Of a DNA stretch of 64,000 nt, positions 24,344-37,268 are shown piece by piece. The notes beneath the pieces are model-generated. The model was not told where the DNA came from. It searched no databases and was given only the letters and a program-made list of their open reading frames with translations. The translations under genes and the position numbers were made by a program. Source of the DNA: Verrucosispora sp. WMMD573 (GTDB lineage Bacteria > Actinomycetota > Actinomycetes > Mycobacteriales > Micromonosporaceae); NCBI RefSeq assembly GCF_027497175.1, contig NZ_CP114901.1, positions 1,240,001 through 1,304,000 on the forward strand, in the 5' to 3' direction. The stretch's first letter is position 1; the number at the start of each line of letters is the position of its first letter.

Positions 24344-24988
24344 TCAGGGGAGGACCTCGAAGGTCCAGGTTTTGGCACCCGAACTGATGGTGACACCGTT
24401 GGAGGCGAGTTTGCCGGTGACTTCGAAGGTGACGGTGTAGATGCCGGCGGCGTCGAAGCCCCAGTTGACGTGGGCGTGGGTGTTGCGGTTGACGTTGAGG
24501 CTGTCGGGTAGGCCGTTGCCGCTGTCGAACAACACGGTCGGGGTGCCGCCGGAGACGGTGTAAACGCTGAAGCCGGCCGGGCCGGTGACGTTTGTGAGTT
24601 TGAAGGTGACGCGGTTGTTCTGAAGGACGCCGCTGGGCACCTCGGTGGTGTTCCAGCCGGCCCAGAGCAGACCGGTGGTGTTGCTCTGCGGCAATACCCA
24701 CGCCTGACCGCCCGTGCCGAGGAACGACCAGGAGCTACCGCCGGGCACGGTGAGCTTGGCGGTGTTGGGGACGCGCAGGACGACGTCGGCGGGGTTGCGC
24801 TCGACCGACGGGCTGACGGTGTCGTCGAGCAGGTTGACGGTCAGCGCGCCGCCGGCGTAGTCGACGTCGATGACGTCGACGTGGCCGCTGGACAGCACGA
24901 TCGGCGCCGCGACAGCGGGGATGGCGCCGCCAGCGAGCAGGGCGGCGGTCAGGGTAAGGCCGGCGAGGAGACGGTTGCGGGTACGCAT
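24344..24988 (-). CDS. Secreted anchored-repeat protein (choice-of-anchor M / P_ac_wall_RPT domain)
   Basis: 214 residues. Signal peptide 1-28, then one complete repeat domain: SSGHVDVIDVDY (H36, D38), FLGTGGQAWVLPQ, WAGWNT, GPAGFSVY, DSGNGLPD, NTHAHVNWGF (H171, H173, N175) and a final beta strand. There is no membrane anchor or LPxTG, so it is probably released or held by another protein. The domain occurs in five other proteins of this locus, and always next to zinc or manganese ABC transporters. Starts five bases after the stop of the next gene upstream and shares its Zur box. Confidence 0.85.
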   Translation of the reverse strand: MRTRNRLLAGLTLTAALLAGGAIPAVAAPIVLSSGHVDVIDVDYAGGALTVNLLDDTVSPSVERNPADVVLRVPNTAKLTVPGGSSWSFLGTGGQAWVLPQSNTTGLLWAGWNTTEVPSGVLQNNRVTFKLTNVTGPAGFSVYTVSGGTPTVLFDSGNGLPDSLNVNRNTHAHVNWGFDAAGIYTVTFEVTGKLASNGVTISSGAKTWTFEVLP

Positions 24989-24993
24989 GGCGA

Positions 24994-25641
24994 TCACGCC
25001 CTGACCACGACGCGGAGGGTGGCCGGCTCGCTGGTGACCTGCTGCCCGGTGGCAGCGAGAATGCCCGTGGCGCGGAAGGTGAGGCAGTAGGTGCCGGCGC
25101 GGTCGAAGGCCCAGTTGGCGTGCAGGTGGTCGCCGGCGGTCAGGCCGATGGTGTCGGGCAGGCCATCGCCGCTGTCGGCAAGGACGGTCGGCTGCCCGAC
25201 GGCGTTCTCGGTGTAGATGGCGAGTTGGCCGGGACCGCTGACCGACTGCAGTTTGAGGGTGAGCGCATCGCCGGTGAATACGCCTGCCTCGACCTCCTCG
25301 GCGGCGATGCCGGGCCAGACGAGGTTTGTGTTCTGGATCTCGGGCAGGATCCACACCTTCGACACGCCAGGGGTGCCGAGGAAGCCGAAGGCGGGATCGT
25401 GCGGGACGGTGACCTTGGCCTGCCGCTTGACGACGATCTTGACGTCGTCGGTGGCGTACTCGACGTCGTTGTCCTCGTCGTGGACGCCGAACTCCAGTTC
25501 GTCGGCCTCGTAGGCGATGTCGACCAGGTCGAGGTGTCCGGAGCTGAACGTCACCACGGATGCCTGCGCCGGCGGCGCTACCGCGAGCAGCGCCGCGGTC
25601 GCCGCGCCGGAGGCGAGCAGCAGGCGGATGGGCTTGCGCAC
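24994..25641 (-). CDS. Secreted anchored-repeat protein, first gene of a two-gene Zur-type operon
   Basis: 215 residues. Signal peptide 1-28, one repeat domain: SSGHLDLVDIAY (H36, D38), an acidic stretch HDEDNDVEY, FLGTPGVSKVWILPE, GPGQLAIY, DSGDGLPD and GDHLHANWAF (H172, H174). One cysteine. The family is linked to metal ABC transporters and zinc-free ribosomal proteins in actinobacteria. GTG start with AAGGAG six bases upstream. A Zur-box-like palindrome lies 40 bases further upstream, so expression under zinc starvation is expected. Confidence 0.85.
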   Translation of the reverse strand: MRKPIRLLLASGAATAALLAVAPPAQASVVTFSSGHLDLVDIAYEADELEFGVHDEDNDVEYATDDVKIVVKRQAKVTVPHDPAFGFLGTPGVSKVWILPEIQNTNLVWPGIAAEEVEAGVFTGDALTLKLQSVSGPGQLAIYTENAVGQPTVLADSGDGLPDTIGLTAGDHLHANWAFDRAGTYCLTFRATGILAATGQQVTSEPATLRVVVRA

Positions 25642-25681
25642 AGAGAACTCCTTCCCGTGGTCCCCTGTGGACCACAGCTAA

Positions 25682-25696
25682 TGAAAACGGTAGTCG
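25682..25696. promoter_or_regulatory. Zur-box-like palindrome upstream of the two-gene surface protein operon
   Basis: TGAAAACGGTAGTCG on the plus strand; read on the minus strand it is CGACTACCGTTTTCA, which differs at three positions from the box at 35938. A short hairpin (GTGGTCC/GGACCAC, 25657-25675) lies between it and the ribosome site. Confidence 0.55.
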
Positions 25697-26083
25697 TTAC
25701 GGACAACATAGGGAAGGGCTAAGCGGTGGAGTGCGTCACGGAGGCACCAGCGCAGTGCGGGCTTCGGTCACGCCGTCGGCCACGGTCAACCCGACCGACA
25801 GCAGGGACGGCGACGCCTTTCGTGATTGGCGCGGCTGATGCGCCGTCCTCACCGTCGGACACGCCCCGACCCGCGCACAGTTCCGCGTTCGTCGGCCGCC
25901 GCGACGTCAGCGTCGCTCGCACGGCTGCGACAGGGCTGCCGCATCGCCCCGACAGCACTGCACATATGCCTCGACGCATCTGGACCACTGCAGGCACGGT
26001 GGTGCACCTCCGCCCGAAGGATGGGCGTACAGGTGCTGGTGATGGCCCGCCGCCGGGGTCGCCTGCGAGGCGGCGCTCGTGCC
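25697..26083. other. Gene-free stretch
   Basis: About 390 bases between the Zur box and the terminator of the metal transporter operon. Frames on both strands are long but arginine-rich and of low complexity, with no recognisable domain. Confidence 0.5.
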
Positions 26084-26117
26084 GACGTGGCGGCCTCGTA
26101 ACCGAGGCCGCCACGTC
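26084..26117 (-). terminator. Strong stem-loop at the end of the metal ABC transporter operon
   Basis: A perfect 15-bp stem (26084-26098 with 26103-26117) and a TAAC loop, 85 bases after the permease stop. No U-run. It fits a terminator of the leftward operon. Confidence 0.7.
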
Positions 26118-26202
26118 TCCACTGATCCGCCCACCGGAGGTACCACGCCCCTCAGCGGACCATCGAAATGGTGGCTGGCCTGTCCTCGACGTCTGGAGTC
26201 GT

Positions 26203-27141
26203 CTAGCGCACCGCCGGTGACGGGTCCGGTGAGTGCGCTAGGTCGGGCGGCGGCGCGGGTCGGGTGAGGTCAGCCGGTCCCTGCTCATTCGCACGTCGCC
26301 ACCGTGTGGTCAGCAGGCCGTGGCGTGGGGCGAGCAGCCAGGCGGCGAGGAAGACGGTCGTGGTTGCCAGGACGATGGTGCCGCCGACGGGGGTGTCGTA
26401 GCTCCAGGACAGGTACAGCCCGACGAGCGCCGAGGTGCCGCCGATTGTCGGGGCGAGCAGCATCATCACGCCGAGTCGGTCGGTGAGCAGGCGGGCCGCC
26501 GCGGCGGGGGTGATCAACAGCGCGAGGACGAGGATGGTGCCGATGGTCTGCAAAGAGATCACCACGGCCAGGGTGACCAGCACGTAGAGCACGATGTCGA
26601 GCCAGAAGACCGGCAGCCCCATGGCGCGGGACATCTCCCGGTCCAGACAGACGGAGACGAACTCCTTGTGCAGGGCGAGCACCAGGCCGAGGATGACCAG
26701 GCCGGTGCCGCCGACGACGTAGAGGTCCCGGTCCGGGATGCCGGTGATCGAGCCGAACAGGAACTGCTGCAGCGATCCGGCGTATCCGGGGGCCTGCGAG
26801 ATGATCACGATGCCGAGGGCGAACGCGCCCACCAGGAAGACCCCGATGATCGAGTCTTCCTTGACGCGCCGGTTCTGCGAGAAGATCGCGATCAGCAGGG
26901 CGGTGGCGACGCCGGCGACGGCGCCGCCGAGGACCAGGCTGCCCTGCAGGACGAAGGCGACCGCGACGCCGGGGAAGACGGCGTGGGCCACGGCGTCGCC
27001 GATGAAGGCCATCCCCCGCAGGACGACGTAGCAGCCGACGACGCCGCAGACGATGCTGGACATCACCGCGATCGCCAGCGCCTTGGGCAGGAACGCGAGG
27101 TCGGGGTTGAACAGGTCGGTGAGGAAGTCGGTGATCGACAT
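26203..27141 (-). CDS. Metal ABC transporter permease (ZnuB-type, anchored-repeat system)
   Basis: 312 residues with about eight membrane segments. The ZnuB/MntB family core is clear: VLRGMAFIGDAVAHAVFPGV (family motif with H), AFALGIVIISQAPGYAG, QFLFGSITGI, SRAMGLPVFWLDIVLYVLV and LLITPAAAARLLTDRL. The last 40 residues are a proline-rich cytoplasmic tail. It forms the membrane channel for zinc (or manganese) uptake with the ATPase upstream; ATG overlaps its stop. Confidence 0.92.
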   Translation of the reverse strand: MSITDFLTDLFNPDLAFLPKALAIAVMSSIVCGVVGCYVVLRGMAFIGDAVAHAVFPGVAVAFVLQGSLVLGGAVAGVATALLIAIFSQNRRVKEDSIIGVFLVGAFALGIVIISQAPGYAGSLQQFLFGSITGIPDRDLYVVGGTGLVILGLVLALHKEFVSVCLDREMSRAMGLPVFWLDIVLYVLVTLAVVISLQTIGTILVLALLITPAAAARLLTDRLGVMMLLAPTIGGTSALVGLYLSWSYDTPVGGTIVLATTTVFLAAWLLAPRHGLLTTRWRRANEQGPADLTRPAPPPDLAHSPDPSPAVR

Positions 27142-27884
27142 CAGGTCGCCCTCACGAGTTTCAGCAGCGGGGAGGTCTCGCTCACCCCGAACGTCTTGGT
27201 CCACAGCTCGGCGTCCTGCAGTTCCGCCGGACGGCCGTCGGCGATGATCCGGCCGTTGAGCAGGACCAGTCGGGTGCAGGTGTCCACCGCGGCGACGAGG
27301 TCGTGGGTGGTCATCAGCACCGCGTGTCCCTCACCGGCCAGGCTGGTGAACAGCTGGCCCAGCAGTTCCTGGGTGGGCATGTCCAGGCCGGTGAACGGCT
27401 CGTCGAGCAGCAGGATGCGCGGCGCGAGAGCGAGAGCCCGGGCGACCAGGACGCGTTGTCGTTGCCCACCGGACAACTCGCCGACCGGCCGCCGGCGCAG
27501 TTCGGTGAGCTGTACGCGGTCCAGGGCGTCGCCGACGGCCCGCCAGTCTGCGACGCCCGGGCGGCGGAGCAGCCCGAGGCGGCCGGTCCGGCCGCTCATC
27601 ACGGCCTGCTCCACGGAGATGGGAAAATCCCAGGTGAACTCGTGGCGCTGCGGCACGTAGCCGATCTCGGAGCGGCCGGGACGTGACGGCTTGCCCTCCA
27701 CCAGCACCCGACCGGCGCGGGTGCCGGTCAACGCCAGGATGGCGCGCAGCAGGGTGGTCTTGCCGGCGCCGTTGGGCCCCAACAGCCCGACCAGCTCACC
27801 CCGATCCAGGTGCAGGCGGATGTTCCGCAGGACCGGCCGGCCGCCGAGGTCCACGTCCAGCCGGTCGATCTCCAGTGCTCTCAC
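27141..27884 (-). CDS. Metal ABC transporter ATP-binding protein (ZnuC-type, anchored-repeat system)
   Basis: 247 residues. Walker A GPNGAGKTT (36-44), Q-loop VPQRHEFTWDFPISV (typical of the Zn/Mn group), signature LSGGQRQRVLVARAL, Walker B ILLLDEPFTGLD, H-loop TTHDL. Drives the ZnuB-type permease. GTG start overlapping the stop of the surface protein gene upstream (GTGA), so the transporter is translated together with its surface partners. Confidence 0.92.
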   Translation of the reverse strand: MRALEIDRLDVDLGGRPVLRNIRLHLDRGELVGLLGPNGAGKTTLLRAILALTGTRAGRVLVEGKPSRPGRSEIGYVPQRHEFTWDFPISVEQAVMSGRTGRLGLLRRPGVADWRAVGDALDRVQLTELRRRPVGELSGGQRQRVLVARALALAPRILLLDEPFTGLDMPTQELLGQLFTSLAGEGHAVLMTTHDLVAAVDTCTRLVLLNGRIIADGRPAELQDAELWTKTFGVSETSPLLKLVRAT

Positions 27885-28882
27885 CGCTGGCCCTCCGATG
27901 ACGCGGCGGCGCGTTCCTGCTCGGCCCGCCGTTTGGCACCGCGTCCGCGCAGCAGGAGAACGACCAGACCGACAACGAGCGCGACGGCAGTTCCGGCCAG
28001 CGCCGTGACCAGGAGCGTCTGGGAACCACCGGCCCCATCGTCGGTTTCGGCCGGGTCCTCGCCGGGCGGCTCCTGACCATCTGGCACCGGGATGTCCGCG
28101 GTGGCGGCAAATGCCTCGTCGGCGCTGGTGGCGTCCCCCACCGCGAAGCGCAGCGTGCGGGTTGCCGAGACGCTCTCCCCGTTGACCAGGTCGGCCGACA
28201 CCTGCACCGCGACGAGGTAGACACCCGGTGCGGAGAAGACCCAGTTGGCATGGGTGTGGGTGTTGACCTCGACCCAGAAGGGCTGGGCCGTCGACTCGGC
28301 CGACCGCCACAGCGGCTGCGGCGGCGCGAAGTTGCCCGACTGCAGGTAGGTCGTGAGGGTTCCTGGACCGCGCACGCCGAGCAGGGTCAGGGTGACACCC
28401 CGGTCGATGGTCTGCATCACCCGGGGATCCTGGGTGTTCCAGCCGAGCCAGACGACATCCTGGTCCTGGACCTGCGGCACCACGTACGCCTGCTGGCCGG
28501 CCGCAATGCCGAGGAAGGCGTACGCGGGGTCGTCCGGCACCGTCTGCAGCGCGGCGTCGGACACCCGCAACAGCGTGTCGTCGGGGTCACGCCACACCGG
28601 TTGCGCCTGGGTGCCGTCGTGGATCAGCAGGGTCCACCTGTCATCGACGTAGCGAGGACCGATGTCGATGTGTCCGGCGGACAGCTCCACCCGGCCGGTG
28701 GCGAGGGGCTGGTCGGCCGCGATCGACTGGCTGAGGTTCGGCGTCGGCTCGGCCGCCCGCGCCGGGGCTGGTGCCAGGGCCTGAGCCGTCGCCAACCCGA
28801 TCGACGTCGCGAGCGCGCCGCGCAGGATGACTGTGGTAGCGCGGGTGCGGCGCGCCCGTCCTGCCAACACTGGTTCCTCCAT
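27881..28882 (-). CDS. ABC transporter-associated anchored repeat protein with C-terminal membrane helix
   Basis: 333 residues. Export signal with RRTRATT near the start, cleavage near 43. One repeat domain: SAGHIDIGPRYVD (H71, D73), FLGIAAGQQAYVVPQ, WLGWNT, GPGTLTTY, VNTHTHANWVF (H209, H211, N213). A linker rich in D, E, G and P follows, then a membrane helix at 289-311 and a basic tail. The domain should stand on the outer face of the membrane, close to the transporter. ATG overlaps the stop of the lipoprotein gene. Confidence 0.88.
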   Translation of the reverse strand: MEEPVLAGRARRTRATTVILRGALATSIGLATAQALAPAPARAAEPTPNLSQSIAADQPLATGRVELSAGHIDIGPRYVDDRWTLLIHDGTQAQPVWRDPDDTLLRVSDAALQTVPDDPAYAFLGIAAGQQAYVVPQVQDQDVVWLGWNTQDPRVMQTIDRGVTLTLLGVRGPGTLTTYLQSGNFAPPQPLWRSAESTAQPFWVEVNTHTHANWVFSAPGVYLVAVQVSADLVNGESVSATRTLRFAVGDATSADEAFAATADIPVPDGQEPPGEDPAETDDGAGGSQTLLVTALAGTAVALVVGLVVLLLRGRGAKRRAEQERAAASSEGQR

Positions 28883-30477
28883 CACTTGTTCGTGGTCAGG
28901 CAGTCGCGCAGCGATTCGGCGTTGAACCGCATCATCTCCGCGTAGGTGGTGACGTCGCGGTCGAACGCGTCGCCGTAGATCGGGCACACCCGCAGGTCCT
29001 CTTCCCGGGCCACCTCGGTCAGCGTGGCGGACCGGGCCGCCAGGTTCGGCTCCATAAAGACGGCGGGGATCTTCAGGTTGCGGATCGTCTCGGTGAGCCG
29101 GCGACGGTCGGCCAGGCTCGGCTCGGCGGCCGGGTTGGGCGTGACGAAGCCGGAGATCTGCACCCCGTACGCCTTGCCCAGATAGCCGAACGCGTCGTGC
29201 GTGGTGACCAGGTGCCGCCGCGACGGTGGGATCTGCGCGATGGTGTCCCGGACGTACGTGTCGAGCTCCTCCAGCTCCCGCAGGTAAGCCGAGGCGTTCG
29301 CCCGGTAGTCGGCGGCACCGTCAGGGTCCACGCCGATCAGGGTGTCCCGGATCAGCTGCACGTAGGCGATGGCGTTGCGGACGTTCTGCCACAGGTGCGG
29401 GTCGATCTCCCCGTGCACGTGCTTGCCGAGAACCGCCTGCGGCAGCTGGTAGACCTGGGTGCCGGGTCGACCGAGGAACCGGAACCGCCGGTCGCCGGGC
29501 ACCTCCAGCAGCGCCTTGTTCGGCACCTCGATGACGGTGCGCGCCGGGTCGTGCACCCGTTGGGTCGCCTCGCCGCCGCCCTCCGGGTCGGCGAGCAGGT
29601 AGAGCCGCCGCTGGTCGAGGTCGACCGTGACGTCGGCGTGCCCGCCGCTCAGTACCTCCGACATGCCCGGCACCGAGTGCGGATCCACGCCGACGGCGAA
29701 GGTGAAGCTCTGCTCGCCCATGGGGACGGGTGCCGACTGCGGGTCGGCGGCCAGCCGCGCCTGCATCGTCAGCCGGTAGACACCCGGTTCGGTGAACGCC
29801 CAGCTCATGTGGGTGTGTGCGTCCGGTGGAAGCGTCGCGGTGTCGTCCCGGTAGCCGTTGGTGGGGTCGAACCCGTCGCCGGAGTCGACGTAGAACGACG
29901 GGTTGCCGAACGACTCGGTCAGGTACGCGAGCATCCGACCGGGCCCGTCCGCGCCGGTCGCGCTGAGCAGCACCTCCGAGGACCGGTTCGCGCCCAGTGC
30001 CGCGCCGGTGCCGCGCACCCGCATGCCCAGCCAGATGGTGTCCAGCGACACGTCCTCGACCAGCGGAATGATCTCCGCCGCGTACTTCACCGACCCCTCG
30101 GCCAGCGAGACGTTCGGTACGCCGTCACGCAGGTTGGCGTCCAGCGCCTTGATGACGGCCTGCTCCTCCAGGAGGAGGTAGTTGCTGAACGCCACGTCGG
30201 CGTAGACGACGTCGCGGATGTCCCGCAGCGACGGCTCGTAGCTGTGCGGATCGGCACCGTCCGGCACCATCGAGGTGACCCGCACCCGGTCGCCGCCCAC
30301 GTTGTGGGCCAGGTCCCGCAGGATCCCGGTGGTCGTCAGAACCTGGACCCGCTGGTCGTGCGAGCTCAACGCCACCTCCGACCGGCAGCCGCCGGCGAGC
30401 AACGCGGCCACCAGCGGCAGCACGACCAGCCGCCGCGCGCCGACGCGGCGGCTGCCGGTCCTCGCCACCGCCGTCAC
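28882..30477 (-). CDS. ZnuA-like metal-binding lipoprotein with an inserted, permuted repeat domain
   Basis: 531 residues. Lipobox LLAGGC (Cys31). The solute-binding fold is split: N-lobe at about 45-142 with ligand H78 (GADPHSYEPS), C-lobe at about 350-531 with H361 (DPHLW), H427 (TTHDAFGYL) and D503 (YGDAFD). Between them lies the surface repeat, but with its halves swapped: first WLGMRV, GPGRMLAY, DSGDGFD, HTHMSWAF (145-262), then SGGHADVTVDL, FLGRPGTQVYQLPQ (274-348). It should deliver zinc or manganese to the permease. GTG start overlapping the upstream stop. Confidence 0.9.
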   Translation of the reverse strand: MTAVARTGSRRVGARRLVVLPLVAALLAGGCRSEVALSSHDQRVQVLTTTGILRDLAHNVGGDRVRVTSMVPDGADPHSYEPSLRDIRDVVYADVAFSNYLLLEEQAVIKALDANLRDGVPNVSLAEGSVKYAAEIIPLVEDVSLDTIWLGMRVRGTGAALGANRSSEVLLSATGADGPGRMLAYLTESFGNPSFYVDSGDGFDPTNGYRDDTATLPPDAHTHMSWAFTEPGVYRLTMQARLAADPQSAPVPMGEQSFTFAVGVDPHSVPGMSEVLSGGHADVTVDLDQRRLYLLADPEGGGEATQRVHDPARTVIEVPNKALLEVPGDRRFRFLGRPGTQVYQLPQAVLGKHVHGEIDPHLWQNVRNAIAYVQLIRDTLIGVDPDGAADYRANASAYLRELEELDTYVRDTIAQIPPSRRHLVTTHDAFGYLGKAYGVQISGFVTPNPAAEPSLADRRRLTETIRNLKIPAVFMEPNLAARSATLTEVAREEDLRVCPIYGDAFDRDVTTYAEMMRFNAESLRDCLTTNK

Positions 30478-32066
30478 CCGGCCGGGGTGGCGGAGCGGCG
30501 ACGGACCAGCAGCAACAGCAGGGTTCCCACCGCGACGAGGACGACGCCGAGCGCCCCGGCCGTCAGCACCCAGCCGGCGCCGGTACGCGGCAGCGGGCCA
30601 CCGCCGCCCTGATCCGCACCGTCGTCGCCGTTGCCACCGCCGGTGGAGCCGGAGCCGGGCCCGAAGCCGGCGTTCGGGTCGGTGCTGTCGCCGACGGCGA
30701 TCGTGAGCGTCTTCGTGTCGGTGACCGCCTTGCCGGCGGTGGTGGTGCCGCTCATCTGCACCGCGAGGCGGTACAGACCGGGCTTGCCGAATGCCCAGTT
30801 GCCGTGCGTGTGGGTGTTGAGCGGGATGTCCAGCTTCTGCGGGAACGGCTTGGTCGAGTCGAACAGCACCTCGGCCTTGCCGAACGAGCCGGTCAGGAAC
30901 AGAGCGAACCGGCCGGGCCCGTTGACGCCCTTGAGCGTCCAGGTGACGTTGCCCTTGATGCCCGACACGACGGACGCGTGCTGGGTGTTCCAGCCCGGCC
31001 AGACGAGACCCGCCTGCTGGGTCTGCGGCAGCACCCACACGGTGTCGCCCGGCCTACCGAGGAAGTCCGCCCCGGCGGGTACCGTGATCTTCGCCTTGTC
31101 CTTGGCGTGCAGCACCACGTCGGCGGTCTCCCGCCAGACCGGAGGGCTGGACCGGTCGTCCTTGATCCGGATCGTCCAGCTGTCCCCGGACAGATTCGGG
31201 CCCATGTCGACGTGCCCGTCGGCGATCACCTGACGAGCACCGGCAGCGGCTTTCGCCGCCTGCGGCACGGCCGCTGCCTTCGGTGCGGCAGCCGGCTTCG
31301 GCGCGGCGGCGGGCTTCGGCGCGGCGAGCGCCTCGGCTGCCTCGGCGCGCGGTTGCGCCGCCTGCTTCATCGGTGCGGGCACCGCTGGCTCGGCCGGCTC
31401 GATCGCCGGCACGTGCACCCGGTACGTCGCCTCGGCACGCACCGTCTCACCCGAGCGCAGGGCGGCCGCGCCGGTCAAGGTGAACCGGTACTCCCCCGCC
31501 GCGTCGAAGGCCCACACCACACCATCCGTACGCCTGCCCGCCGGTAGCTGCGTCGACCGCGGCAGGTCGGCACCGTTGCCGAACAGCGGGGTCGCCGCGC
31601 CGAGGCCGGACAGGGTGTACGCGGTGAACGTCCCCGGCCCCTCGACCGAGCCCAGCGTCAGGGTCACCCGGTCGTCGACGACGACGCCGGAGCGTACCCC
31701 GGTGGTGTCCAGGGACGGAAACCCGGTGTCACCGGCGGACAGTGCCCACACGGCGTGGCCCGGCTTCCCGAGGAAGGCGAAGGCCGGTCCGGCCGGCACC
31801 CGGCCGGCCAGGCCGCCCTCCGGCCCGAGCACCACCTCGGCCGGGTCGCGCCCGGCCGCGCCGCCGGCCACCTGCGCGGCGTCCCGGAAGCGCAGCGACA
31901 TCGCGTCGCCGTCGAGCGCGACGGAGACCAGGTCGGCGCCGGCTGAGGTGACGGCGGCCGGTGCGGCGGCGGCTGGGGTGACGGCGGCCGGCGCTACCGC
32001 GGGGGTCAGTGCCAGCACGACGGCGGCCAGGCTCGCGGCGCCGACGCGCCTACTTCTCATCCTCAT
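30474..32066 (-). CDS. Two-domain anchored-repeat surface protein with LPRTG sorting signal
   Basis: 530 residues. Signal peptide about 1-36. Two repeat domains joined by an Ala/Lys/Pro-rich linker (APKPAAAPKPAAAPKAAA). Domain 2 is complete: DGHVDMGPNLS, FLGRPGDTVWVLPQ, WPGWNT, NTHTHGNWAF (H419, H421). Domain 1 keeps the fold (FLGKPGHAVWALS, GPGTFTAY, WAFDAAGEYRF) but has SAGADLV and GRRTDGVVW where the others have GHxD and HxHxNW. C-terminal LPRTG (492-496), membrane helix and RRR tail mark it for sortase attachment to the wall. Confidence 0.88.
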   Translation of the reverse strand: MRMRSRRVGAASLAAVVLALTPAVAPAAVTPAAAAPAAVTSAGADLVSVALDGDAMSLRFRDAAQVAGGAAGRDPAEVVLGPEGGLAGRVPAGPAFAFLGKPGHAVWALSAGDTGFPSLDTTGVRSGVVVDDRVTLTLGSVEGPGTFTAYTLSGLGAATPLFGNGADLPRSTQLPAGRRTDGVVWAFDAAGEYRFTLTGAAALRSGETVRAEATYRVHVPAIEPAEPAVPAPMKQAAQPRAEAAEALAAPKPAAAPKPAAAPKAAAVPQAAKAAAGARQVIADGHVDMGPNLSGDSWTIRIKDDRSSPPVWRETADVVLHAKDKAKITVPAGADFLGRPGDTVWVLPQTQQAGLVWPGWNTQHASVVSGIKGNVTWTLKGVNGPGRFALFLTGSFGKAEVLFDSTKPFPQKLDIPLNTHTHGNWAFGKPGLYRLAVQMSGTTTAGKAVTDTKTLTIAVGDSTDPNAGFGPGSGSTGGGNGDDGADQGGGGPLPRTGAGWVLTAGALGVVLVAVGTLLLLLVRRRSATPAG

Positions 32067-32095
32067 GGAGGGTCGCTCCCCCAGGCGTAGCCGAG

Positions 32096-33343
32096 TCACT
32101 TCTCGTCCTTCCCCGTGCGGTCGATGGTGGACAGTCGGTCGTCGTGTTCCGGGCCGGGACGTTCGATGTCCGGTGTCGGGCGGTCGTCGGGTGCCGGCCC
32201 GGTGCCGCGGGTGACGGGAGGCCGCTCGTCGGCGGCCACCGTGGCGTCCTGGCCGTCCGGTGCCGGGCCGGCCTGCGCGCGGCCCTCCTCCCGGGCGGCG
32301 GCCAACGCCCGTGCGAGCTGCGCCGCTCGGCGGCGCCGGGCCGCGACCAGGGCCCAGCCGGCGAGGGCGAGAAGGGCGAGAAGGACCAGGTGCGGCCAGG
32401 GCACCGCCCATACGACGGCCTGCGCCGGGTCGGCCCGCGGCGGCGGGTCGAGGACCTGGTCCCCCACGGCGGCCGGCGTGACCGTCGCGTCCGCGCTCAG
32501 CCGGAACAGCGGCGCAACACCCGCCATGCGTACGGTGGTGGTCAGCTCGCCGCCGGGCAGAATCTCCGGTAGGGCCGCACCGTCCACGGACTTCCGGGCC
32601 AGGCCGAACGGTCCGGCCACGCCGAGCACCGGCTGCCCGGACAGCCGGACATTGCCGGTGTTGCGGACGGTGAACGTGGCGGTGACCGTGCCCCCGGCCA
32701 GCGGGTTGACCGAGCCGGTGTGCCGCACTCGCAGGTCTTCGACGGTGAGCGTCGGCTGCAGCTCACCGGTGACCCGCAGGTAGATGCGCGCGCCGACCCG
32801 GTGGTCGACGGCGACCTGGTTGCCCTGCGCGTCGACGGCGGTGCCGGCCAGCGAGGCGACGATCCCTCCGGCATGGTCCCCGGGCGTGGCGTTGCCCGGA
32901 ACGGTGAGCGTGAACGGTACGTCCAGCCGGGACGTCGACGGGATGGTCACCGTCTTGTTCGGCAGGCGGACCCACGAGCCCACGTCGGTGGGCTTCCGAT
33001 CGGCGGCCAGCAGATCGAACCCGCCCTGCGTGGTGGTGACCGCGTCGCTGGCGTAGAGGCTCAGGGTGAGCGGGCGGTTCGAGTGGTTCGTGACCCCGAC
33101 GTAGTCCGTCAGGGTGGCGCCCGGATCGAGCTTGTAGCTGAACGCCGGCCGGCCGTTCGGCCCACGCGCGCTCGACGGTGCCACGCCCCAGGTCGCGGCG
33201 GCGGTAGGGGGTTCCGCCGATGGCGAGGTCCCGTCCGCTGCCGGCGGAGTCGAGGGAGCGGGCGCGGCCAGCGCGGAGGCAGATGGCGTGGGGGCCGCGC
33301 CGAGCAGGGCGATCCCGGCGGCGATGGAGGCGAGCAGGCGCAT
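32096..33343 (-). CDS. DUF916-type (WxL-associated) surface protein with C-terminal membrane helix
   Basis: 415 residues. Signal peptide 1-27. A DUF916-like beta domain at about 50-190 (FSYKLDPGATLTDYVGVTNH, GSWVRLPNKTVTIP, PGDHAGGIVASL), a second immunoglobulin-like domain (VRNTGNVRLSGQPVL), a membrane helix at 318-334 and a charged cytoplasmic tail of 80 residues. In Firmicutes DUF916 proteins pair with WxL proteins on the wall; the neighbour at 33473 ends in a WxL-like domain. The two probably form a wall-bound complex. Confidence 0.75.
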   Translation of the reverse strand: MRLLASIAAGIALLGAAPTPSASALAAPAPSTPPAADGTSPSAEPPTAAATWGVAPSSARGPNGRPAFSYKLDPGATLTDYVGVTNHSNRPLTLSLYASDAVTTTQGGFDLLAADRKPTDVGSWVRLPNKTVTIPSTSRLDVPFTLTVPGNATPGDHAGGIVASLAGTAVDAQGNQVAVDHRVGARIYLRVTGELQPTLTVEDLRVRHTGSVNPLAGGTVTATFTVRNTGNVRLSGQPVLGVAGPFGLARKSVDGAALPEILPGGELTTTVRMAGVAPLFRLSADATVTPAAVGDQVLDPPPRADPAQAVVWAVPWPHLVLLALLALAGWALVAARRRRAAQLARALAAAREEGRAQAGPAPDGQDATVAADERPPVTRGTGPAPDDRPTPDIERPGPEHDDRLSTIDRTGKDEK

Positions 33344-33425
33344 TGCGGGGACGATTCCGTTCCTGGGGTACGAGGGGAGGTGCGGGGCAGGCGGGTCGCG
33401 GCAACGACACGCCCACCCCGCGGTC

Positions 33426-33460
33426 GTCCGGTGGCCAGGCTCGACGCCCGACCACCGGAC
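33426..33460 (-). terminator. Stem-loop between two surface protein genes
   Basis: GTCCGGTGG (33426-33434) and CCACCGGAC (33452-33460) pair perfectly, with further partial pairing in the loop. It starts 13 bases after the stop of the 33473 gene. It may end part of the transcripts and so set a lower level for the genes further down, or protect the upstream message. Confidence 0.5.
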
Positions 33461-33472
33461 GGGTTGGTGCGA

Positions 33473-34945
33473 TCAGATGGCGGTGAGGGTCAGGGTCGCG
33501 GTGTAGGTCCCCGCCGCCGTCTCGGTGGGCAGGCTCAGCCGCAGGCCCGCGTCCAACTGCGCGGTGCCCCGCCCGGCACCGTCCGGCGCCGAGCCCAGCA
33601 CCGCGCTGTTACCGAGACCGCCGCCAACACCGACGACGTACGGCGCCACCTCCGGGCCGGGTAGCACGCCCTGCCCGTCAGCCTGGGCCAGGACGCGCGG
33701 CGTCCAGCCGAGGTAGCCAGCGCTGAACGTCGCCCCGTCCGGCCCGACGAAGTCCGCCGGGATCTGCCCGGACGCGCTCCACCCCGGCTGACCCGCCCGG
33801 GTGTCGGTCACCGTCACCGGCCGCAACTCACCGGTGCTCTCCCACCGGTCACCGGCGGCGTTGAGCTGCGCGGGCGGCAGCACCACGGCCCGGTCGTCCG
33901 GGTTGACGCTGATCACCAGCGAGCCCTGCGTCTCGTCGATCGACGCGGTGATCGTCTGCGACGTGCCCGGATCCTGCGGTGGGAACGCCACCCACAGGGT
34001 CACCGGCTCGCTGGACGCCACGACCGCGTGGTCGTCGTCGTAGAGCTTCGCCACGTACTCGCAGGCGTTCAGCTCCCGCGTCGCGGTGAACGAGTAGCTC
34101 GCGCCACCCTCACCCGGAACGATCGTCCAGTCCGCTGCGCCCGGGCACCTGCTGAACCAGTGGTAGTGGTCCAGCTCCGTCTGTGGCGTCTGCACCGCGT
34201 TCAGCGTCACCGTGTCGTTGGGCTGGTACTCGTCGGCCATCCCGCTCACCGACAGGCTCACCTCCGGCCCGCCGCCGGACAGCTCGCCCACCACGAACGA
34301 GTAGTCGACCGGCCCGGTGCTGAGCGTGGTGCCGTCGGCCAACGTCGCGTCGGCCTGGAACTTCAGCGTGTAGCTGCCCAGGGCGCTGAACGCCCAGTTC
34401 GAGTGCGCGTGCGTGTGCACCGGCACGTCGATGGCGTCCGGAAGCCCGTCGTCGCTGCGGAACTTGATGATCGGACCGCCGAACGAGTCCTGCGTGAACA
34501 GCGTGACATTGCCCGGCCCCTCAACGCCCACCAGGCTCAGCCGAACCTTGTTTCCTGCGAACACCCCCGAGTCGAGTTCGGTGGTGTTCCAGCCCGGCCA
34601 GAGCAGGTCCGGGTCCTGGGTCATCGGCAGCAGCCAGATCTGGCTGCCGGCCGGGCCGAGGAACGCGAACCGTGAGTCGTCCGGGACCTGCATCGCTGCC
34701 TGCGGCAGCACCTGGAACGTGACGTCCGCCGGATCCCGGATCACCACCGGGCTGCCCGTGTCGTCCCGCACCTTCAGGGACAGTCCGCCGTCGGTGTAGT
34801 GCACGTCCACCGCGTCGGTGTGCCCCTTGGAGAGCACCACCTTCTCGGCCGCCGAGGCAGCGGTGGGCGTCAGCGCCGTGCCGGCGACCACCACCGCCCC
34901 GGCGACCAGGGCCGCGAAGCCGCGAGCCCTCAGTGTTGCCTTCAT
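33473..34945 (-). CDS. Anchored-repeat surface protein with C-terminal WxL-like domain
   Basis: 490 residues. Signal peptide 1-33. Repeat domain: SKGHTDAVDVHY (H42, D44), FLGPAGSQIWLLPM, WPGWNT, GPGNVTLF, HTHAHSNWAF (H177, H179, H181, N183). Then an Ig-like part (240-350) with two cysteines, and a C-terminal domain (375-490) with VTVTDTRAGQPGWSASG, LGWTPRVL and the ending TAAGTYTATLTLTAI, which resembles WxL wall-binding domains. There is no LPxTG or membrane anchor, so this domain may hold the protein on the wall together with the DUF916 protein. Confidence 0.8.
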   Translation of the reverse strand: MKATLRARGFAALVAGAVVVAGTALTPTAASAAEKVVLSKGHTDAVDVHYTDGGLSLKVRDDTGSPVVIRDPADVTFQVLPQAAMQVPDDSRFAFLGPAGSQIWLLPMTQDPDLLWPGWNTTELDSGVFAGNKVRLSLVGVEGPGNVTLFTQDSFGGPIIKFRSDDGLPDAIDVPVHTHAHSNWAFSALGSYTLKFQADATLADGTTLSTGPVDYSFVVGELSGGGPEVSLSVSGMADEYQPNDTVTLNAVQTPQTELDHYHWFSRCPGAADWTIVPGEGGASYSFTATRELNACEYVAKLYDDDHAVVASSEPVTLWVAFPPQDPGTSQTITASIDETQGSLVISVNPDDRAVVLPPAQLNAAGDRWESTGELRPVTVTDTRAGQPGWSASGQIPADFVGPDGATFSAGYLGWTPRVLAQADGQGVLPGPEVAPYVVGVGGGLGNSAVLGSAPDGAGRGTAQLDAGLRLSLPTETAAGTYTATLTLTAI

Positions 34946-35034: not shown

Positions 35035-35340
35035 TCACCACGACGCCTTGCGGATGCCCGGCAACTCGCCACGCAGCGCCATCTCCCGGAACCTGACCCG
35101 GGACAGTCCGAACCGGGTCAACACCCCACGTGGGCGGCCGTCGATCTGGTCGCGTACGCGCAGGCGCACCGGGCTGGAGTCGCGCGGCAGCCGACTGAGT
35201 CGGCGGACCGCCTCGGCACGGACGTCCGGGTCGGTGTCCGGGTGGGCGATCAGCCGCTTCAGCCCGGCCCGGGCCTCGGTGTGCCGGGCGACCAGTTCCT
35301 CTCGGCGGGCCTGCCGGTTGACCAGGCTCTTCTTGGCCAT
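35035..35340 (-). CDS. rpsN: Zinc-independent ribosomal protein S14
   Basis: 101 residues with no cysteine, so the zinc ribbon (two CxxC pairs) of the housekeeping S14 is absent. The C-terminal part [20 protein letters not shown] followed by [10 protein letters not shown] is the S14 signature. Such C-minus paralogues replace zinc-containing ribosomal proteins when zinc is scarce. ATG overlaps the L33 stop. Third gene behind the Zur box at 35776. Confidence 0.95.
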
Positions 35341-35507
35341 CAGCGTGCCTCGCGAAACTCGACGTGGCGGCGCACGATCGGGTCGTACTTGCGCAGGGTC
35401 AGCCGGTCGGGATCGTTGCGCCGATTCTTGCGGGTGACGTACGTGTAGCCGGTGCCGGCGGTGCTACGCAGCCGCACGATCGGCCGGACATCGGTCTGGC
35501 GGGCCAT
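35340..35507 (-). CDS. rpmG: Zinc-independent ribosomal protein L33
   Basis: 55 residues, below the usual length cut-off of gene finders: starts [18 protein letters not shown], followed by [20 protein letters not shown] and ends [15 protein letters not shown]. No cysteine, whereas the zinc-binding form has two CxxC pairs. ATG at 35507 overlaps the L28 stop; its own stop overlaps the S14 start. Confidence 0.95.
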
Positions 35508-35743
35508 CAGAGCTTCACCCCCCGGCTACGCAGCTCGGCGACGACCTTCTCGATGCCCTTGCGGTCCACGGTCTTCAACGCCTTCGCCGTCAGGGTGAGG
35601 CTGACCCACCGCCGCTGCGACGGCAGCCAGTAACGGTGGTTCTGCAGGTTCGGGTTCCACCGGCGACGGGTGCGCCGATGGGAGTGGGACACGGCGTTGC
35701 CGAAACTCGGCTTCGCGCCGGTGACGTCGCAACGTCTGGACAC
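35507..35743 (-). CDS. rpmB: Ribosomal protein L28, Zur-type paralogue
   Basis: 78 residues: [58 protein letters not shown]. Only one cysteine is left. GTG start with GAGGAG eight bases upstream. First gene of the leftward zinc-starvation operon, 33 bases from a Zur box. Confidence 0.95.
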
Positions 35744-35775: not shown

Positions 35776-35790
35776 CGAAAACGGTTTTCA
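35776..35790. promoter_or_regulatory. Zur box for the L28-L33-S14 operon
   Basis: CGAAAACGGTTTTCA; its 13-base core GAAAAC-G-GTTTTC is a perfect palindrome. On the minus strand it reads TGAAAACCGTTTTCG, close to the actinobacterial Zur consensus TGAAAATGATTTTCA. It lies just upstream of the L28 ribosome site. Confidence 0.8.
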
Positions 35791-35937: not shown

Positions 35938-35952
35938 TGACAATCGTTTTCA
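35938..35952. promoter_or_regulatory. Zur box overlapping the -10 region of the CobW-like gene
   Basis: TGACAATCGTTTTCA, two or three changes from the Zur consensus. A -10-like TAGAAT (35933-35938) abuts it, so bound Zur would block the promoter. Ribosome site GAGAGGAAG and ATG 35973 follow 20 bases downstream. Confidence 0.8.
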
Positions 35953-35972: not shown

Positions 35973-37268
35973 ATGTCGTCGTCACCACAGGCACCGACCC
36001 GCGCCGTGACAGCGGACGCCGACACCCGCCCGTCACTGACCGTGCTGTCCGGGTTCTGGCCGGCGGCAACCTTCGCCGTCGCCCGCACACTGCTCGCCGC
36101 CGACACCTCGCTGCTGCTGGTGCGGCACGACCTGGCCGGGATCCGCGACGGCCTCGTCCGGCGGGTGGTCCGCACCGGCGCTGGCATTGTCGAGGACGAG
36201 CAGGTCACGTTGCGGCACGGTTGCGTCTCCTGCACACTCCGAGAGGACGTGCTACCGACCCTCGTCCGGCTCACCCGCACGCATCCCGGCCAGGACCTGG
36301 TGCTGATGCTGCCCGAGGTGGTCGAACCGGAAGCCGTCGCCGCCGCCTGCGCCCACTGCCTCGTCGACGGCGCACCCATCACCGACCTGATCCGGGTCGA
36401 CTCCTACGTCACCGTGGTAGACGCCGAGCACCTGCTCGACGGCCTGGCCAGCACCGACGACCTGAAGACCCTCGGCATCGCGGCCGCCGACAACGACGAC
36501 CGGGCGTTGGCCGATGTCGTGGTCCGGCAGATCGAGTACGCCGACACCCTCGTCCTGTGGGGCGAGTCCCGCGAGGGCACGTACGACACCAGCCGCCTGT
36601 CGGTGCTGCTACAACGGATGGCGCCGTGGGCGACGCAGGTCCGCGTCCACGGAGACATAGTCGACGCCGACACGTTGACCAGGCAGCTTCGCCACACCCA
36701 CCGGCACCGGCCCGAGACCCCGGGGATCTTCGCCCGCGGTCTACAGGGCTACACCCTTGGCGCGCACGAGCCCGAGCCCGACTACGGAGTCGTCTCCGCC
36801 GTCTTCCGCGCCCGCCGCCCGTTCCACCCCCAGCGCCTGCACGACGTCCTCGAAGACGTCAACGCCGAGATGATCCGCTCCCGAGGTCACCTCTGGCTGG
36901 CCAGCCAACCCGACACCGTCATCGCCTGGGAGTTCGCCGGCGGCGGCCTGGCCATGGGCTCCCTCGGACACTGGCTCGTCAGCCTGCCCGAAGCCCACTG
37001 GGAACACGTCGACGACCAGCGTCGCCTCGCCGCCGCCCTCGACTGGGACCCCTACTACGGCGACCGCCACCAGCACCTGGTCTTCATCGGCCTCGACACC
37101 GACCCCGTCCACCTGCACCGCACCCTCGCCGACTGCCTGCTCACCGACGCCGAACTCGCCGACGGCGAGGAGACCTGGCGCACCTACCCCGACCCGTTCA
37201 CCGACTGCTTCCCCCTCGCCGCGGCGGAACCAACCGACACCGACAAAGAAGGAGCACGACCCGCATGA
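35973..37268 (+). CDS. CobW/COG0523-family protein with degenerate P-loop, Zur-regulated
   Basis: 431 residues. The family layout is complete: metal-binding segment [19 protein letters not shown] (C84, C87), ADTLVLWGE, and the CobW C-terminal domain [39 protein letters not shown]. The Walker A position reads [14 protein letters not shown] (26-39) where active GTPases have GFLGAGKTT, so lysine and glycines are lost and GTP hydrolysis is doubtful. The cysteine motif is CVSC rather than CxCC. Members of this family are zinc chaperones made during zinc starvation. First gene of an operon with L31. Confidence 0.88.

Follow-up and report, generated by a model that had tools for sequence, protein, structure and literature searches.

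Joint loss of two histidine motifs and a circularly permuted copy inside a ZnuA-type lipoprotein point to one probable zinc site in a Verrucosispora surface domain

Verrucosispora sp. WMMD573 carries, on the minus strand of the 64,000-nucleotide stretch analyzed here (“the window”; contig NZ_CP114901.1, positions 1,240,001 to 1,304,000), a cassette of surface-protein and ABC transporter genes in which one domain, choice-of-anchor M (choice_anch_M, NF038134), recurs. Seven copies lie within positions 24344–34945, and a search of the 6.5-Mb genome at E 0.001 returned no further copy; one of the seven is circularly permuted and shows up in that search as two pieces. In the direction of transcription, the run begins with the L28-L33-S14 ribosomal protein genes and continues with genes for a 490-amino-acid (aa) surface protein, a WxLIP-like protein, an LPRTG wall protein, a ZnuA-type substrate-binding lipoprotein (SBP), a protein in the position of ZnuE (the “E protein”), an ABC ATPase, a permease, and the two small secreted proteins S1 and S2 (Table 1). 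The ribosomal protein genes (35743–35035) were named from their translations, and we take them to be of a type that serves when zinc is scarce.

With the exception of the WxLIP-like protein, every protein of the cassette passes the curated cut-off of an NCBIfam anchored-repeat or choice-of-anchor-M model (TIGR03769–TIGR03773, NF038134); none of these models is annotated with a metal site in the search output. The description of TIGR03769 reportedly holds the idea of a relay. The six non-permuted copies reach 70.3–203.6 bits against NF038134 (cut-off 55 bits); the permuted copy reaches 57.6 and 35.8 bits as two pieces, and the whole SBP 90.2 bits. The LPRTG protein scores 453.3 bits against TIGR03773 (cut-off 190.3), with a sortase signal composed of LPRTG, a hydrophobic stretch, and a terminal RRR. 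In the E protein, a signal sequence and a C-terminal membrane helix can both be read off the sequence. The SBP scores 824.8 bits against TIGR03772 (cut-off 350.45), and has the ZnuA fold and the four ligand places of Cluster A-I (ZnuA); its third ligand place is His, as in AztC, whereas PsaA has Glu there.

Table 1. Positions of the cassette genes, domains, and Zur-type boxes in the window
Feature	Position	Strand	Assignment, motifs, or place
S1, secreted single-domain protein, 214 aa	24344..24988	-	GHVD 24875-24886, HAHVNW 24461-24478
S2, secreted single-domain protein, 215 aa	24994..25641	-	GHLD 25528-25539, HLHANW 25111-25128
Weak Zur-type box, 2 mismatches	25682..25696		40 bp upstream of S2 start
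ABC permease	26203..27141	-	TIGR03770 anchored-repeat type / ABC-3 family
ABC ATPase	27141..27884	-	TIGR03771 anchored-repeat type
E protein (ZnuE position), one domain	27881..28885	-	GHID 28664-28675, HTHANW 28241-28258
SBP with inserted permuted domain	28882..30477	-	TIGR03772 / PF01297 ZnuA
GKHVHG linker, aa 351-356	29410..29427	-	Between insert and ZnuA ligand His361
Circularly permuted domain insert, aa 142-347	29437..30054	-	C-terminal half aa 142-271 (HTHMSW), then N-terminal half aa 272-347 (GGHAD, FLG..LPQ)
LPRTG wall protein	30474..32099	-	TIGR03773; intact domain 2: GHVD 31206-31217, HTHGNW 30795-30812
LPRTG degenerate domain 1 stretch	31512..31940	-	GADLV 31926-31940 and RRTDGVVW 31512-31535 replace the His motifs
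WxLIP_PGBD-like membrane protein	32096..33343	-	PF06030, E 3.1e-12
490-aa surface protein, one domain and WxL-like C-terminus	33473..34945	-	GHTD 34814-34825, HAHSNW 34394-34411
Alternative ribosomal protein genes	35035..35743	-	Head of the strand run; from translations
Zur-type box, 1 mismatch	35776..35790		32 bp before the L28-L33-S14 run leading into the cassette
Zur-type box, exact to TGANAANNNTTNTCA (consensus core)	35938..35952		Before COG0523 GTPase gene

A first-pass annotation of this locus had counted seven domain copies, six of them with a GHxD motif at the first strand and an HxHxNW-type motif near the end, and had proposed that the two motifs build a single metal site. The motif positions confirm the count. 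The GHxD His and the start of the second motif lie at H36 and 171 (HAHVNW) in S1, H36 and 172 (HLHANW) in S2, H72 and 210 (HTHANW) in the E protein, H296 and 430 (HTHGNW) in domain 2 of the LPRTG protein, and H42 and 179 (HAHSNW) in the 490-aa protein; the residue numbers given earlier agree for S1 and the 490-aa protein, and are off by one for the E protein owing to a shift of the start codon. In these five intact, non-permuted copies, the first His and the HxH are 134–138 residues apart, which fits the HxD/HxH layout of the ZnuE/F/G type, where the two motifs enclose some 150 residues. S1 has only three His among its 214 residues, each of them a motif His. The order of motifs described earlier does not extend to the SBP copy, in which HTHMSW at 221 precedes H280 as a consequence of the circular permutation. 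The seventh copy is LPRTG domain 1: all three His are gone, with RRTDGVVW in the place of the second motif, as had been described, but the Asp of the first motif is retained (S-A-G-A-D-L).

The core idea of an HxD/HxH zinc motif has already been published. Peng et al. 2025 (PMC12445094) described the motif in Corynebacterium diphtheriae ZnuE, ZnuF, and ZnuG, with a modeled pocket, zinc-dependent shifts, and His-dependent growth. ZnuE and ZnuG require the His for function, and zinc shifts the homologues in nano differential scanning fluorimetry (nanoDSF) (PMC12445094). AlphaFold models of the C. diphtheriae homologues bring both motifs together rather than far apart, in agreement with the single site proposed for the window (PMC12445094). 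The C. diphtheriae system (ZnuE/F/G, CmrA/CmrA2) shares with the cassette not only the motif but also the order SBP, E protein, ATPase, permease and a reversed motif in the SBP, and is itself under Zur control (PMC12445094); it belongs to another organism, and Verrucosispora has seven copies. Zinc and Zur repress the C. diphtheriae cluster (PMC6711530), and Zur regulation of the cluster has been predicted in Corynebacterium pseudotuberculosis (PMC3022926). The accessible text of PMC12445094 has no words for permutation, insertion, His-rich, choice, or TIGR, and natural motif loss is not treated in it. A search of the literature on the family and gene names, and on permutation with ZnuA or solute-binding proteins, returned nothing closer, with most subscription journals outside its coverage. 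Added here are a joint-loss test, a loop that is lost together with the motifs, and the circular permutation of the SBP copy.

Joint loss was examined in relatives of the cassette. A scan of genome contigs from three SBPs (those of the window, G246, and G214) found 368 relatives. The 80 best loci, three further genome stretches, and the window together make up the main sample of 84 sources. It rests on genome loci and contains 441 near-full domains outside SBPs, including near-copies (e.g., L099/L101), so that the effective number of sequences (Neff) at 70% identity is 169. The hidden Markov model of the domain used for these counts was built without SBP reading frames, since an earlier iteration that included SBP pieces masked the permutation. 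All four residues (three His and the Asp) are present in 385 of the 441 domains. The first His is missing from each of the remaining 56, and their HxH is never intact: 37 keep the Asp only, 15 keep none of the four, three show a His in the last column alone, and one has the Asp and the first HxH His. In 10 of the 56, the first-His column is a gap. Thus, the covariation that the first-pass annotation had suggested looking for is present: the first His and the first HxH His are jointly present or jointly absent in 440/441 domains, and no near-full domain has HxH without the first His or shows plain loss of one motif alone.

A second sample came from a search of a bacterial family for the domain itself, which was found in 8 of 197 genomes. 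Its 26 loci from seven further genomes gave 32 distinct domains, with 33 partial rows set aside. Twenty-eight are intact, and four have neither the first His nor HxH, a single one of the four carrying an isolated His in the last column; the two His columns agree in 32/32. This sample may share species with the first, and its degenerate copy L125 resembles that of L072. In both samples, related copies are not independent in these counts, and kinship is addressed by the tree tests below. One odd domain in the main sample (L085:6003-6668) reads GDHWDV, with HxD two columns early, and SHEDLRW, with HxD for HxH. Outside the 441 are 16 divergent fragments, 12 of them with neither motif. One of the 16 has HxH without the first His; two others (L091:14382-16709 and L077:9157-9819) retain HxH, but upstream of it the reading frame appears to be off, perhaps through frameshifts, assembly errors, or decay. 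Giant wall proteins (L025:7665-11978, L092:1594-9258) carry at least five domain copies, with intact and site-less ones mixed; the longest pattern is xxxHxHHHH.

The histidines are not lost alone. Among 36 conserved columns (domain numbering: His9, Asp11, His146, His148), the three highest weighted phi values join the three His: 0.98 for His9-His146, 0.94 for His9-His148, and 0.92 for His146-His148. The next, with His9, are Trp83 (0.82), Gly85 (0.71), Asp11 (0.70), and Pro74 (0.70). Trp83 is present in 370/385 intact vs 2/56 degenerate domains, and Pro74 in 365/385 vs 5/56. Residues of the fold are retained in degenerate copies (W151 in 52/56, G157 in 56/56, Y159 in 52/56), and so is the Asp in 38/56. 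The earlier claim that both motifs are lost jointly therefore needs rewording: three His go together, the Asp mostly stays, and the LPQ...WPG loop is a third co-lost element beside the two His motifs. A pocket formed by the three His and this loop would explain the loss pattern better than even decay. In a coupling analysis of the 385 intact domains (Neff 198), pairs 6-78, 7-80, 10-82, and 14-87 are among the higher scores, and invariant columns give equal scores, which are artefacts; at this low depth, the pairs lend weak support to a loop that would lie by the HxD strand. The predicted structure of the domain has a mean predicted local distance difference test score (pLDDT) of 97.5, and no solved structure clearly resembles the domain (best E 0.21).

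Inside the SBP, the domain is rearranged. The domain profile matches the SBP in two pieces in all 83 sources that have one (the 84th source, L026, does not), and the same two-piece match is seen in the eight domain-bearing genomes of the family search. In 12 listed SBPs, the C-terminal piece (start residue 38–80, end 186) comes first and is followed by a piece of ~2–76. The mean score is 72.1 bits for the inserts as they stand and 129.0 bits once their halves are rejoined in canonical order, whereas 686 random rotations >15 residues off the joint average 94.8 bits; the true joint is best for its own insert in 83/83. The SBP as modeled by AlphaFold (mean pLDDT 83.9, with low confidence at 131–145 and around 350–358) has closely the strand order of the domain model, rotated. 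The SBP copy is thus a circular permutation (83/83), cut in the LPQ...WPG loop. Both motifs are kept in 83/83, with HxH before GHxD, and HVH follows the insert in 83/83; because the SBP loci were picked with the patterns [DE]AHTH[MV][SN]W or PQAV[LI]GKH, the patterns themselves account for part of the conservation seen at HTH and at the first His of the linker. The insertion point lies near the usual His-rich loop of ZnuA, and a ZnuA metal ligand follows 14 residues after the insert. Where a domain follows the SBP gene within 700 bp, it is intact (81/81 sources); L024 and L093 have none within that distance. The source without an SBP carries one distant intact copy (L026:6221-8359), the sole match to the domain in that genome; the tail of this copy resembles that of the 490-aa protein.

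Permuted insert and HVH together suggest a built-in hand-over of zinc. We regard it as about an even bet that the capture domain, permuted through the loop of its own site and spliced into the ZnuA loading loop, forms with the HVH bridge and the cleft one intramolecular zinc relay, an evolved replacement of the flexible His-rich loop. A zinc-binding domain fused to a ZnuA core is a partial precedent, reportedly with an end-to-end layout. Such a domain does occur in one chain with the ZnuA core (PMC6689063), but it is a different domain, while the Verrucosispora SBP has an internal insertion of a permuted beta-sandwich. The arrangement also differs from zinc transfer between AztC and AztD or ZnuA and ZinT (PMC6689063) in that the accessory-domain copy lies, permuted, inside the SBP near the loop position.

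Could the degenerate copies descend from a single loss? A tree of the domain was built without the motif and loop columns, with 28 degenerate copies sampled. A single clade of all 28 is rejected (approximately unbiased [AU] test, p 0.00012), and the best tree requires nine changes. A larger, quick tree of 246 representatives has seven first-His changes and three contrasts on starred (well-supported) branches; in these three, the first HxH His changes in the same direction in 2.8/3 on average, and the HxH His do so in nearly all pairings and never in the opposite one, numbers too few for significance. The clearest separate loss is the copy at L057 (5120-6049, minus strand), which has lost the three His and retains the loop, W, G, and Y, and which adjoins an intact relative (support 94). 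Wall proteins from what we take, by organism name, to be Micromonosporaceae hold many of the degenerate copies as their N-terminal domains, and the nine of these copies sampled form one strongly supported clade. LPRTG domain 1 was also considered as a recent pseudodomain, a reading rejected because many of the Micromonosporaceae sampled show the same state.

Two Zur-type boxes, before the COG0523 GTPase gene and before the ribosomal protein genes, resemble the actinobacterial Zur consensus taaTGaNAANNNTTNtCANta (PMC5472717) well. The first-pass annotation had placed Zur boxes at this locus; these two hold up, and the third, before S2, is at the chance level, in that sites with two mismatches number seven in the window vs 2.7 expected, a count reached by 4 of 100 shuffles. 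The window scan found no box with ≤2 mismatches directly before the SBP gene. Across the 83 loci, 121 boxes with ≤1 mismatch occur in 66, compared with 3–5 in three simple block shuffles; this count takes any position and includes related loci. The cassette is patchy: the domain is present in 4 of 396 genomes of a phylum sample and the SBP above its cut-off in 9 of 41 genomes of a near sample, the Verrucosispora genome included in both.

Taken as a whole, the interpretation given in the first-pass annotation is partly supported. That both motifs build one shared site is well supported by joint loss, which is separate, evolutionary evidence for the three His as one unit. The domain probably grips zinc via His from two distant parts of the chain; zinc as the ligand is suggested by the Zur context and by the published homologues. 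The reading that we judge best, with good though not full confidence in it as a whole, combines a beta-sandwich zinc site, capture at the surface, a permuted SBP copy, and a relay inward. The choice-of-anchor-M domain would be a beta-sandwich with one zinc site, made up of the GHxD His at the first strand (with the Asp nearby) and the two HxHxNW His near the end, beside the LPQ...(L/V)WPG loop. On Zur derepression, the wall copies (LPRTG, WxL-like, and secreted proteins) and the membrane E protein would catch zinc. The SBP copy, cut in the loop by its own site, is spliced in shortly before a ZnuA ligand, at about the place of the His-rich loading loop of ZnuA/AztC. Zinc could then pass from the wall copies to the E protein and/or the built-in SBP copy, and by way of the HVH linker to the ZnuA cleft and the permease. 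Deletion of znuA has a weak effect and deletion of znuE a strong one (PMC12445094), so the E protein is likely to receive most of the zinc; the SBP insert would act second to it or in parallel. We infer that the histidines are zinc ligands in Verrucosispora, and with them the geometry of the site and each step of the transfer to the lipoprotein.

Several observations weigh against this reading. A triple-Ala ZnuE mutant is still zinc-responsive and the ZnuG mutant is unclear, and the paper stops short of proof that zinc is bound by the motif (PMC12445094). In the 28-copy tree, the starred branches alone force no more than one change, and the program warns of long branches. Single motif changes do occur, in three divergent small proteins with Asp at the former His each time; among the fragments, L092:768-1481 retains HxH with GDLD for GHxD, and L094:3659-4279 retains GHFD with HxD for HxH. 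These two and L085:6003-6668 are possibly Asp-for-His ligand swaps. Such changed copies would also fit an explanation without any metal site, in which the His are structural or disappear together through overall decay of one face in N-terminal copies that are dispensable. The single Micromonosporaceae clade agrees with this, as does faster evolution, with 58% mean pairwise identity among N-terminal degenerate copies vs 75% among their partner domains (35 proteins, one outside the clade). However, decay of this kind would not be expected to spare the other conserved residues (W151, G157, Y159), to remove the His and leave the loop, W, G, and Y in the L057 copy beside its intact relative, or to preserve both motifs in a permuted copy where their order is reversed. 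We consider it improbable, the least favored of the explanations.

If there is one site, it need not serve a relay, nor bind a lone zinc ion. The domains may instead be a surface store or sink for zinc. In C. diphtheriae lacking ZnuAECB, ZnuF and ZnuG lower growth in low zinc, in a His-dependent manner for ZnuG, for which the authors suggest sequestration or storage; when ZnuAECB is there, the two proteins have no significant effect on peak growth, which fits hand-over (PMC12445094). The permuted copy within the SBP (83/83) and the intactness of the copy that follows (81/81) also speak against a store. We see storage as a serious minority possibility, well behind capture and relay. Much less likely, and about on a par with decay, is that the shared site binds a zinc-metallophore complex, haem, or another metal via the His and the Trp loop. 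Trp83 and the LPQ loop, lost with the His, could form an aromatic wall that a lone ion would not need, and cmrA adjoins a haem exporter in C. diphtheriae (PMC6711530). The Zur-type boxes around the cassette, the adjoining zinc-shortage-type ribosomal protein genes, the His at the third ligand place of the SBP (as in AztC, not Glu as in PsaA), and the zinc shifts in homologues (PMC12445094) all argue for zinc itself. Streptococcal polyhistidine triad (Pht) proteins, with which the C. diphtheriae proteins have been compared, are likewise surface zinc binders proposed to supply a zinc SBP (PMC12445094); their HxxHxH motif is absent from the six window proteins and occurs in 3/441 domains, and the haem and Pht readings were both ranked lower.

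With a relay inward as the preferred reading, the permuted insert turns the reversed motif into a mechanistic clue, i.e., a capture domain built in near the ZnuA loading loop, and makes the route of wall-bound zinc to the transporter directly testable. The L057 copy and LPRTG domain 1 can serve as natural negative controls.

The C-terminus of the 490-aa protein (33473–33958) is WxL-like, although PF13731 matches it only at E 0.067, under the cut-off, and its gene adjoins that of the WxLIP_PGBD protein, which suggests attachment to the wall without a sortase. A pair of W motifs like that of the 490-aa protein occurs in 30 of 332 domain reading frames, at 29 loci. Attachment of this type may be relevant to ZnuF, whose presence at the wall without a sortase is unexplained. 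Lastly, the gene behind the exact Zur-type box (35973–37268, with an inferred start codon) encodes a COG0523-type GTPase near NF047431, a ribosome hibernation factor-recruiting MRF model (305 bits vs a cut-off of 375), and ZigA.

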